A DNA stretch of 37,919 nucleotides, from assembly GCA_021793645.1 (NCBI GenBank), contig JAJYSJ010000024.1, forward strand, positions 1 to 37,919. Direction: 5' to 3'. How positions within the stretch are numbered: the stretch's first letter is position 1; each line of letters starts with the position of its first letter. The notes under the pieces were generated by a model. That model ran no database searches. It saw only the letters and a list, made by a program, of their open reading frames with translations, and was not told the origin of the DNA. Source of the stretch: Bacillota bacterium. GTDB taxonomy: Bacteria; Bacillota; Sulfobacillia; JAJZYS01; JAJYTV01. Of this stretch, positions 6,909-9,806 are shown in pieces. A program made the position numbers and the translations under genes.

Positions 6909-7844
6909 ATGGAGTATCGTAAGCAGCCGGCGAAGTCTGCCCTGCAGCGCGTTGACGGCATGCCGTTTCGCTGGAGCCTCAATCCATACCGCGGCTGCCG
7001 GCATGCGTGTCTCTACTGCTATGCACGCATCTACCACTCCTACATCGGGTTCGAAGATCCCGCAGACTTCGATCGGATCATCCTGCACAAGGATGATCTG
7101 CCCGATCGGCTGCGCGCTGAACTCCACGCGCGTCGCACTCCCCTTGAGGGTGAGATCGCGATCGGCACCGCGACAGATCCCTACCAGCCGATCGAGGCGA
7201 AGGAGCACGTTACGCGACGCCTCCTTGAGGTGCTGCTGGAGGCTGGCCGCAGCGTGTCAATCACGACAAAGTCACCCCTCGTGACGCGAGACCTCGATCT
7301 CCTGCGCGCGTTCGCCGCCTACGGCGGCGTTCGCGTGAACGTGACGGTGACGGTGCTGGACGATGGCCTTTGGCGACTCCTGGAGCCGATGACCCCAAGT
7401 CCAACAGGGAGACTCGCCGCGCTTTCCACGCTCGCCGATGCAGGAATCCCGACCAGCGTCTTTCTCGCACCTGTCGTTCCGCAGATTGGGGATGAAGACG
7501 CCCTGCGGGTCCTGGCCGCTGCCGCAGAGGCCCACGTGGGGCACGTCATGGTGCAGGTCCTGCGCCTTGCCCCTGGGGTGGGCGAATGGCTGCTGCCACG
7601 GCTGCGCGCACTGCGGCCCTCTGCGTCCGCTCGCCTAGAGAGTCTTTACAGGCACCGGCAGACGTTGTCCACCGAGGACCGCGATCGCATCCTGGGGCCG
7701 ATCCTCGAACGCCGACGCGCATATCGGCTGGAGCGTCCTCTCCCAGCGCTCCGCACACGGGAGGCGCAGCTTACGCTCTTCAGCGGCTCAGAAGCTTCCT
7801 TCGCGTCTGCTGCTAACTTTGGCCCGGGCCCGTTGCGTCAATAG
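6909..7844 (+). CDS. Radical SAM protein, spore-photoproduct-lyase-like (Rv2578c-type)
   Basis: The protein has 311 residues. It binds a 4Fe-4S cluster through C30-x3-C34-x2-C37 (GCRHACLYCYAR) and uses S-adenosylmethionine to make a 5'-deoxyadenosyl radical. Family members often carry the label SPL-like DNA repair photolyase, but their substrate is not known. Other landmarks are GTATDPYQPIEAK and SITTKSP. ATG 6909 is chosen because it lies directly behind the -10 element. An upstream in-frame ATG at 6807 would put the promoter and operator inside the coding region. The mRNA is probably leaderless. The putative LexA site supports a role in the DNA-damage response. The last four codons and the stop lie within the left terminal repeat of the adjacent mobile element, so the native C-terminus may have been replaced. 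Confidence 0.85.
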   Translation: MEYRKQPAKSALQRVDGMPFRWSLNPYRGCRHACLYCYARIYHSYIGFEDPADFDRIILHKDDLPDRLRAELHARRTPLEGEIAIGTATDPYQPIEAKEHVTRRLLEVLLEAGRSVSITTKSPLVTRDLDLLRAFAAYGGVRVNVTVTVLDDGLWRLLEPMTPSPTGRLAALSTLADAGIPTSVFLAPVVPQIGDEDALRVLAAAAEAHVGHVMVQVLRLAPGVGEWLLPRLRALRPSASARLESLYRHRQTLSTEDRDRILGPILERRRAYRLERPLPALRTREAQLTLFSGSEASFASAANFGPGPLRQ

Positions 7845-7894
7845 AAAGGTACTTGAACGCTGTTCGTTGCCTCAGAACGGAAAGATACTTGAGC
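7833..7894 (+). repeat. Left terminal inverted repeat, two tandem motif copies
   Basis: It reads outward to inward TTGCGTCAA, GGTACTTGAA, TTGCCTCAGAA, AGATACTTGA. It matches the reverse complement of 8166-8226 over most positions. The upstream radical SAM gene ends inside it (TAG at 7842). Confidence 0.75.
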
Positions 7895-7954
7895 GACAAG
7901 GCGGAAGGGAGGGGGAAACCCGAAGGTGTCCCCCTCCCGCTGGCCCTGGGGACG

Positions 7955-8110
7955 CCGGCCCGCGCCCTGTAGCTGCGGTTGTAGCCGAGCAGCTTCGTTG
8001 CCTCGGTCGAGCAGGGCGCCCTTCTCCGACTTGCGCGCCTTGCCATAGCGCTGCGCCAGTTCTCTCAGCACCGCCTGGCGCTCCTTGAACGCGAGAGGCA
8101 GGTCCAGCAC
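7955..8110 (-). pseudogene. Transposase N-terminal remnant inside the MITE-like element
   Basis: Leftward from 8110 the frame reads LAFKERQAVLRELAQRYGKA then RKSEKGALLD. The continuation ATKLLGYNRSY lies in another frame at about 7980-8010. Together they resemble the N-terminal helix-turn-helix region of integrase-core transposases (pattern KEKGxLLDEF..LTGYNRxYA). The frame change and the loss of everything downstream make it non-functional. It probably shows the parent element from which the MITE was derived by internal deletion. Confidence 0.6.
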
Positions 8111-8165
8111 CTCCTTCTAAGGCAGGCTTGAGACCCCTCTTTCGACCCACCGTGTTCGCCCTCCC

Positions 8166-8226
8166 TTCGAGTACCTTTTGCTTCTGAGGCAACGAAGCCG
8201 TTTCGAGTACATTAATTTTGAGGCAA
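8166..8226 (-). repeat. Right terminal inverted repeat, two tandem motif copies
   Basis: Read leftward from 8226 it gives TTGCCTCAA, TGTACTCGAA, TTGCCTCAGAA, GGTACTCGAA. The spacing between motifs is the same as at the left end. Confidence 0.75.
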
Positions 8227-8235
8227 GTCGCCGGG

Positions 8236-8264
8236 TTGACTTCACTCCTCCGCCGGGGTACGGT
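8236..8264 (+). promoter_or_regulatory. Sigma-A-like promoter of the small peptide unit
   Basis: TTGACT (8236-8241) and TACGGT (8259-8264) are separated by 17 bp. Transcription would begin near 8271. The leader contains a small inverted repeat, CAGAT and ATCTG at about 8270-8286, and then the ribosome site. Confidence 0.5.
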
Positions 8265-8303
8265 GTGTGCAGATTTCCGCGATCTGTAAAGGAGGGAGAG
8301 ACC

Positions 8304-8369
8304 ATGGCCAACGACGTCTTTTGCTGCACGCTTGGTGCGTTGTCGGCCGGCGTCTCCCACCCAGCCTAA
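8304..8369 (+). CDS. 21-residue peptide with a Cys-Cys pair (unknown function)
   Basis: ATG 8304 follows a near-perfect AAAGGAGGGAG with seven bases of spacing. The product is 21 residues long. It begins MANDVFCCTLG, has the Cys pair at positions 7-8, a small-residue stretch LGALSAG in the middle, and ends SHPA. I do not recognise a family. The unit is compact: promoter at 8236-8264, short leader, this ORF, then a strong terminator from 8384, giving a transcript of about 145 bases. No peptide-modifying enzyme or dedicated transporter lies next to it. It could be a secreted or modified peptide precursor, a leader peptide controlling the kinase gene downstream, or a small RNA that happens to carry an ORF. 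Confidence 0.5.
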   Translation: MANDVFCCTLGALSAGVSHPA

Positions 8370-8383
8370 GCAGCGCAGGGTTA

Positions 8384-8416
8384 AAGACCGCAGGCCGACA
8401 GCCTGCGGTCTTCTTT
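8384..8416 (+). terminator. Rho-independent terminator after the small peptide gene
   Basis: A perfect 12-bp stem, AAGACCGCAGGC with GCCTGCGGTCTT, encloses the 5-base loop CGACA. It is followed by CTTTG, a modest U-tract. Confidence 0.85.
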
Positions 8417-8474
8417 GTGCTTGCTGCGGTATGAGGGCCTGCCTTCCACTACACCGATTGCGGAGGGAAACACT

Positions 8475-9218
8475 ATTTTCGACGAAGAGGCAATTTCGGA
8501 GTTCTACGATCGTGATCTGATCACTGACGTGATCGGCCAACTTAAGGCCGGCAAAGAGGCACAGGTATTTGTCTGCCGCGCCCATCCAAAGACAGGTTAC
8601 GATCTCCTCGCCGCCAAGTTGTACCGCCCGCGCGAACAGCGTGGCTTCCGCAGCGAGGCGCCCTACCTCGAAGGACGCGGCAGCCTCAGGTGCGGCAGGG
8701 CGCGCGATAGCAGCGTGACCCGCGCGATCGATCGGCGAAGCCGTGCCGGCAAGACCCTGCTCTCAGAGACCTGGGTCCGGCGCGAGTACGACGTGCTGCA
8801 CCGGCTGAAGCGCGAGGGGGTGCAGGTACCTGCACCGGTCGCATGTACTGAGCATGCGGTACTGATGCAGTACCTCGGCGACGAGCACGCCCCCGCCCCC
8901 CGTCTCCTCGCGCAGTCGCTGACAGCAGGAGAGGCTGCAGCGTTCCGCGCGGCGCTCCTGGAAGATGTGGAGCGCTGCTTGCGCGCCGGTCTCATCCACG
9001 GTGACCTCTCGCCGTACAACGTGCTGGTCTTCCAAGGGGCGCCTTGGATCATCGACCTGCCACAGGCGGTTGATGCTGCCGTGCATCCGGATGGCCGCTC
9101 CCTGCTCCGTCGTGACGTGACGAACCTCACACGTCACTTCGCGCGCCACGGCATCCCGGATGACGGTGCTGACTATGCTGATGCGCTGTGGGAGCAGTAT
9201 GAGCGCGGACGCATCTAG
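8475..9218 (+). CDS. RIO-type serine/threonine protein kinase
   Basis: This is a protein kinase-like ATPase of the RIO1 group. Visible motifs are the ATP-binding segment QLKAGKEAQVFVCRA, the catalytic loop LIHGDLSPYNVLV, and the metal-binding Asp in WIIDLPQAVD, where RIO kinases have IDxxQ instead of DFG. The start is a problem. The frame is open from a TTG at 8415, but that lies in the tail of the upstream terminator. The only good ribosome site, GGAGGG at 8462-8467, points to an ATT at 8475 in the right frame. ATG 8431 is in another frame. I list the ATT start, giving 247 residues, as provisional. A start damaged by an indel is an alternative. Bacterial RIO kinases are little characterised. 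The stop is TAG at 9216-9218, 54 bases from the converging HPP gene. Confidence 0.75.
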   Translation: MFDEEAISEFYDRDLITDVIGQLKAGKEAQVFVCRAHPKTGYDLLAAKLYRPREQRGFRSEAPYLEGRGSLRCGRARDSSVTRAIDRRSRAGKTLLSETWVRREYDVLHRLKREGVQVPAPVACTEHAVLMQYLGDEHAPAPRLLAQSLTAGEAAAFRAALLEDVERCLRAGLIHGDLSPYNVLVFQGAPWIIDLPQAVDAAVHPDGRSLLRRDVTNLTRHFARHGIPDDGADYADALWEQYERGRI

Positions 9219-9272: not shown

Positions 9273-9806
9273 TTACTGTCCACCGTTCACATTGGCGTTT
9301 CCCAATCTGTCATTGGTCTTGGCGGGCCGACGCGGATAGGTCGGCCATCCGGCGACGCGCCGACTCAGAACCGCGGCGCTGCCCACCGCAACAAGCGTGA
9401 ATGCGGCAACGGGAATGAGCGGGAACAGGACCGACGGACGAAGGAGAAGCGGATACATCGACAAGGCCAGAGCAGGGGGGTGGTAAGTTCGCAGAGCATT
9501 GAGCAGCACGAACGTGGCAACTGCGGCTACCACGGCCCAGACGGGTCCGTGCACGGAGAACGAGAAGACCGTGCCAATGGCAGCGCCGAGCGTCGATCCA
9601 AGCACCACAGGCAGCGGCTGCGCCACGTCCTGTTCTGAAAGTCGTAGAACAATGCTTAGCGTTGCGGCGAACGGTGGCACCAGCAGTACCCGCAAAACTC
9701 CTGGCTGCCCATCGGGCAGTGCAACGAGGGCGAGCATCAGGACAAACCAAATGTATCCGGACCAGAGGTGCGATACTTGACCTGTACGAACGGGAGCACT
9801 CGGCAC
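9273..9806 (-). CDS. HPP family integral membrane protein
   Basis: The protein has 177 residues and about four to five hydrophobic helices. HPP proteins (PF04982) are small membrane proteins. Plastid and cyanobacterial members have been linked to nitrite transport, but bacterial roles are open. Family marks are LLVPPFAATLSIV near residue 45 and the eponymous HPP in TYHPPALALS near residue 110. The start is GTG at 9806 with AGGAGG eight bases upstream. The C-terminal ~25 residues are polar and Asn-rich. It converges on the RIO kinase gene and follows a truncated frame on the same strand. Confidence 0.8.
   Translation of the reverse strand: MPSAPVRTGQVSHLWSGYIWFVLMLALVALPDGQPGVLRVLLVPPFAATLSIVLRLSEQDVAQPLPVVLGSTLGAAIGTVFSFSVHGPVWAVVAAVATFVLLNALRTYHPPALALSMYPLLLRPSVLFPLIPVAAFTLVAVGSAAVLSRRVAGWPTYPRRPAKTNDRLGNANVNGGQ

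Follow-up and report, generated by a model that had tools for sequence, protein, structure and literature searches.

A conserved 21-codon reading frame and mutually exclusive covarying helices upstream of a RIO1-like kinase gene: a probable translation-dependent transcription attenuator in Sulfobacillia

The window, meaning the whole stretch of DNA that was analysed (37,919 nucleotides, contig JAJYSJ010000024.1 of assembly GCA_021793645.1), carries a compact leader unit directly upstream of a gene for a RIO1-like kinase. The upstream gene (6918-7844) encodes a radical SAM protein near the PA0069 and Rv2578c families, under the cut-offs of both, and in the genus relatives, too, the leader seems by eye to be preceded by its C-terminal end. 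Between this gene and the promoter-like pair lies an inverted-repeat element (7824-8235; 69-nt arms, 71% complementary), which by eye is missing upstream of the promoter in three same-genus relatives and of which a 74-nt end piece was found once more in the genome at 85% identity. Downstream of the kinase, and convergent with it, a gene encodes a membrane protein of the HPP type (9273-9806). The parts of the unit and of the kinase gene are as follows, with the basis of each assignment in brackets.

8236..8264, + strand: promoter-like pair TTGACT-17-TACGGT (sequence; motif upstream of the ORF in 7/7 genomes)
8288..8296, + strand: putative Shine-Dalgarno (SD) sequence of the leader ORF, AAAGGAGGG (sequence; leader alignments)
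8291..8309, + strand: segment A, the region of the SD and start codon, predicted to pair with 8345-8362 (pairing, covariation)
8304..8369, + strand: leader ORF of 21 codons, predicted peptide MANDVFCCTLGALSAGVSHPA (kept in 7/7 genomes without indels)
8341..8356, + strand: segment B, predicted partner of A (as 8345-8362) or of C (covariation)
8384..8400, + strand: segment C, the 5' arm and loop of the terminator, predicted to form an antiterminator with B (pairing, covariation)
8384..8412, + strand: predicted intrinsic terminator C:D with a perfect 12-bp stem (sequence; 96.1% of 77 cells paired)
8462..8466, + strand: putative SD sequence of the kinase gene, GGAGG (GGAGG-7-8 nt-ATT/ATC in 7/7)
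8475..8477, + strand: putative near-cognate start codon of the kinase, ATT (ATT or ATC in 7/7 orthologues)
8475..9218, + strand: RIO1-like kinase, the proposed regulated gene (Pfam RIO1, scored on the ORF 8415-9218)

The promoter pair, SD, 21-codon ORF and terminator described in an earlier note on this DNA were all found at these coordinates. The -35 element (TTGACT, 8236-8241) and the -10 element (TACGGT, 8259-8264) are separated by a 17-bp spacer; the pair is absent from the listing of a sigma-70 scan because the -10 element is poor by consensus. A search of the seven loci that carry the unit, on both strands (50,318 bases), with the motif TTGAC-N(17-19)-TA[CT]GnT returned seven matches, one upstream of the ORF in each genome and none elsewhere, including the interval between the terminator and the kinase. 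The leader RNA was predicted to fold strongly (z -4.87). No Rfam family was reached at the gathering threshold, no tRNA was found, and the search for further copies of the unit in its own genome returned only the palindromic terminator matching itself.

The kinase was identified with the Pfam RIO1 model (E 4.2e-39; 134.6 bits against a threshold of 22) and matched solved RIO1 chains with a best E of 3.7e-29. Its nearest NCBIfam model is that of the RIO1-like PA4780 family, aligned over residues 9-246 with a score of 196.7 bits, below the curated membership cut-off of 350 bits. The start of this gene had been called odd in the earlier note, rightly and, as it proved, on a point of importance: in all seven orthologues the codon found in frame at the expected position, 7-8 nt after GGAGG, is ATT (two genomes) or ATC (five genomes). 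In the strictest case, G003, no in-frame ATG, GTG or TTG was found from the upstream stop codon to the P-loop; the other kinases have some such codons nearby, at positions that are not shared. The infC gene was found in eight of the ten family genomes searched (L066-L073) and appears to start with ATC in all eight; the stretch from the upstream stop to this ATC has no canonical start codon. By its position relative to the SD, the kinase reading frame appears to begin at AUU or AUC, much as infC seems to do at AUC, and it is from this position that use of the codon as a start is inferred. In two distant proteobacterial relatives of the kinase the start codon is ATG or GTG, and by eye neither is preceded by such a leader. 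A kinase match in G149 was dropped, as by eye it adjoins unrelated genes, and a kinase piece in G233, which contains a stop and is split in two, had no leader recognisable by eye.

A DNA search of 101 genomes recovered the unit, with 72-78% identity, in each of the three further species that belong to the genus, in agreement with the earlier suggestion that such an order of parts is unlikely by chance, and three genomes of a sister genus keep the unit in a more divergent form. A full-length kinase was found in 7 of 154 genomes of the class, namely four of the genus and three of the sister genus, and these are the same seven of ten family genomes that carry the leader. Upstream of the kinase the order is identical in all seven: a TTGAC motif, TA[CT]GnT, an SD, an ORF that is always 21 codons long, a terminator and a second SD. 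The start, frame, length, stop position (TAA, TAG or TGA) and SD of the ORF are kept throughout and the terminator always lies between ORF and kinase, while the distance separating the terminator from the kinase SD ranges between 29 and 60 nt. Conservation of the ORF or of the RNA fold in relatives had been proposed as a check; it was seen here for the frame and length of the ORF and for the RNA pairing, in seven sequences from one family, six of them metagenome bins. In the three family genomes that have no kinase, a covariance model (R1) gave no strong leader match; G004 has a weak one of 21.8 bits. Across the 154 class genomes the model reached E <= 0.5 in 42, and only the seven kinase genomes exceeded 100 bits, the next being G146 at 36.5 bits. 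Of the weaker matches, nine loci were run through the model a second time and six alignments were inspected; apart from G146, these resemble chance terminators or coding sequence by eye. Among 398 genomes of the phylum three reached E 0.001, namely the window's own genome, G001 and G332 (7.9e-4).

The peptide itself does not appear to be what is conserved. Residues differ widely among all seven leader peptides, and the adjacent cysteines emphasised in the earlier note proved peculiar to the window genome, G002 having one Cys and the five others none. In codons 2-12 the three codon positions vary alike (0.55, 0.49 and 0.54), and amino-acid similarity among the seven ORFs was not above a codon-shuffling control (P 0.24 for codons 2-12 and P 0.11 for codons 2-21). 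Neither a conserved stretch of codons specifying a single amino acid nor a conserved R/K-X-R/K or other stalling motif was found among the seven; Arg-rich peptides occur mainly in the sister genus, and the window peptide has no Arg-rich motif. This pattern of change argues that the leader ORF is kept for its 21-codon length and its frame, not for its peptide. The earlier note had held that lack of coding constraint would refute its reading, and for the peptide such a lack was indeed found (P 0.11). A leader is not refuted by it, however, because being translated would be the function. That the ORF is instead a small gene in its own right, encoding a secreted, modified or Cys-Cys metal-binding peptide, with the kinase expressed by leaky termination, would fit the promoter-like pair, the SD and the strong terminator that the ORF has to itself, its constant 21 codons, and the MA start and VSPPA-like end seen in several of the peptides. 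We regard this as unlikely: against it stand the variable cysteines and the shuffling result, the even variation of the codon positions, the absence of any promoter motif match between terminator and kinase, and the location of the conserved 3' half of the ORF in an RNA helix region, where changes follow pairing. A functional peptide was rejected as the product on the same lack of amino-acid constraint and on a plasmid search that returned no match to the leader peptide.

Pairing was assessed on a seven-row alignment of the leaders (A5), with slid pairings and shuffled alignments as controls. For helix A:B, 90.2% of 112 cells were paired, as against 37.5-65.2% for slid pairings, and the covariation score of 0.310 was reached by 0 of 500 shuffles; for helix B:C, 91.4% of 105 cells were paired, as against 30.5-44.8%, and the covariation score was reached by 1 of 500 shuffles, relatedness among the seven sequences inflating covariation in both cases. 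Four B:C pairs have changes on both sides, and two of five B:C measures fell within the shuffle range (91/500 and 110/500). Two of the B:C changes, at the second position of codon 13 and the first position of codon 14, alter the amino acid, yet the pair is kept in most genomes. The terminator C:D was paired in 96.1% of 77 cells with no two-sided change, and its nearly invariant pairs reveal little through covariation; the antiterminator B:C, supported by covariation and the slid controls, uses the 5' arm of the terminator and is exclusive with it. Some positions change together in all three strands: A17/B71/C107 is GCG in four genomes and then GUG, UAU and CGC, and A18/B70/C108 is AUA in six genomes and GCG in one. 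Of 35 triples, 29 keep both pairs, a number that none of 5000 permutations reached (maximum 28). Such coordinated change of one position in all three strands strongly points, at the level of sequence, to a switch. A:B and B:C are covarying helices that exclude each other, the latter also competing with the terminator. The strong folding and the covarying helices would also be expected of an independent small RNA, or of a leader bound by a ligand or protein, in which the ORF is incidental. Such an origin seems improbable to us given the lack of an Rfam match, the preservation of SD, start, frame, 21-codon length and stop in all seven genomes, the 29-60 nt spacer before the kinase SD, and a ribosome-position model that separates the two folds in every leader.

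In this model nascent RNAs were folded with a ribosome footprint masked over 15 nt upstream and 17 nt downstream of the first P-site base, both values being chosen ones. With the P site at codon 1, 3, 5 or 7 the mean B:C probability was 0.99-1.00 in all seven leaders, and at the codons sampled between 9 and 20 it was 0.00-0.01, again in all seven; with the ribosome on the last codon B:C became likely again in five of seven. By the values at codons 1-7, antitermination would therefore be favoured by a ribosome that stops on the start codon or shortly beyond it. When no ribosome was placed and the loop was complete, the equilibrium nascent-RNA model favoured B:C over A:B in six of seven leaders, and A:B was favoured only earlier, until about column 116-120 in most of them; that an untranslated leader would be off thus rests on the order of folding. 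For the four leaders from the genus of the window, equilibrium favoured the complete terminator at every ribosome position (C:D 0.76-1.00), and the decision must therefore be kinetic, taken during transcription. The complete RNA of G008 mostly did not form the terminator in the model and is a poor fit to the terminator state. In an attenuator that senses specific codons, in the manner of amino-acid biosynthesis operons, the Cys7-Cys8 codons would be candidates; in the window they border the range of ribosome positions (codons 1-7) for which the model gives the on state. We give this reading little credence, as the relatives have no Cys-Cys, codons 3-8 contain no other run of residues shared across the two genera, and the regulated gene is a kinase.

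The earlier note had left three possibilities, a leader controlling the kinase, a peptide precursor and a small RNA. The first is well supported by the location of the unit upstream of the kinase in 7/7 genomes and by the covarying exclusive helices, which include the terminator; the other two, and the emphasis on Cys-Cys, are not supported. The unit probably forms the leader at the 5' end of the RIO kinase mRNA, where it would act as a translation-dependent transcription attenuator that switches the kinase on upon early ribosome stalling. RNA polymerase would start some 30 bases upstream of the 21-codon ORF, and segment B of the transcript could then pair either with A, which holds the SD and start codon of the ORF, or with C, which makes up the terminator's loop and 5' arm. 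If a ribosome were to stop on the start codon, or anywhere in the initial seven or so codons, it would cover A and leave B free, and the free B would pair with C, block the terminator and allow the kinase to be transcribed. A ribosome that had moved further would cover B and let the terminator form; with no ribosome, A:B would form first during transcription and favour the terminator. What matters in this scheme would be the position of the ribosome, not the sequence of the peptide.

The ermK and mef-mel macrolide attenuators, as described in a review, share this design of leader ORF, intrinsic terminator and an antiterminator favoured by a stalled ribosome (PMC5418344), but they control resistance genes and stall at drug-specific motifs of the peptide, whereas no conserved peptide motif was found in the kinase leader, which precedes a RIO kinase with a putative AUU/AUC start. 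Also comparable is the toiL uORF of Escherichia coli topAI, a general sensor of translation stress in which stalling at the start codon or at various codons alters the structure of the downstream RNA; toiL acts on the topAI ribosome-binding site and on Rho-dependent termination, and not, as proposed for the kinase leader, on an intrinsic terminator (PMC12121999). The leaders of tlrB (yxjB) in Bacillus subtilis (PMC6851288) and of hflXr (rli80) in Listeria (PMC6310831) likewise place a short ORF and a terminator upstream of a gene acting on the ribosome, but differ in their RYR or RLR stalling motifs and, for tlrB, in a 9-residue peptide and an additional SD-sequestering hairpin.

A second gate on kinase expression would be the AUU/AUC start, of the infC type and linked to IF3. 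In well-studied bacteria AUU/AUC-type starts such as that of infC depend on IF3, and infC of E. coli combines a near-cognate start with a good SD. For Staphylococcus aureus, conserved near-cognate starts are described for infC (AUA), cvfC1 (AUU) and ccpN (AUA), and these genes, as the kinase apparently does, combine a start other than AUG, GUG or UUG with a good SD; in poor medium, reporters carrying the non-AUG starts of cvfC1, ccpN and citZ reached roughly 10% of the level obtained with AUG, a figure that rose to as much as 30% for ccpN when the medium was rich (PMC13009471). Such low expression makes the kinase AUU/AUC start a plausible second brake, although a RIO kinase is not among the near-cognate genes just named (PMC13009471) and the kinase start is deduced from sequence. 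Searches of open-licence papers turned up no description of a RIO kinase that has a leader or a start of this kind. Rio1 of archaea and eukaryotes acts in small-subunit maturation; to our knowledge, the role of bacterial RIO kinases is unsettled. It is conceivable, and we propose it only tentatively, that the two translation-linked gates, an attenuator that senses early-stuck ribosomes irrespective of the peptide and an AUU/AUC start that serves under weak proofreading by IF3, make the kinase a feedback part of 30S or initiation quality control, a bacterial counterpart of the role of Rio1. By the DNA alone, the RIO kinase is tied to the state of the ribosome twice, through a probable translation-sensing leader and through an apparent infC-type start codon. 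This double link makes it a testable matter which translation stress induces the kinase and whether the kinase acts on the small subunit.

Outside the family, G146, from another family of the class, contains a kinase remnant matching about 80 of 247 positions, upstream of which lies a leader, unrelated in sequence, that has an ORF of 18 codons and a terminator (L039, about 1288-1500). In the folding model this leader follows the same three-helix logic: A:B reached 0.997 when no ribosome was placed, and B:C reached 0.99 with the ribosome at codons 1-5 and fell to <=0.01 from codon 6. Its B:C duplex was stronger than those of all 500 shuffles of B and of all but 0.2% of the shuffles of C. Below the terminator GGAGG, 5 nt and ATC were recognised by eye, the kinase frame not being continuous from this ATC. 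The covariance match of 36.5 bits in the same genome comes from a second leader (L081, 1501-1637), in which a 23-codon ORF, MAKKIRLTVAGLFAALVGSPPRA, and a terminator precede genes for an apparent ABC transporter ATPase and a membrane permease. This leader was not counted as support because shuffled controls did not set its B:C pairing clearly apart (P 0.036 and 0.11); by its resemblance to the kinase leader, it may be another translation-sensing attenuator.
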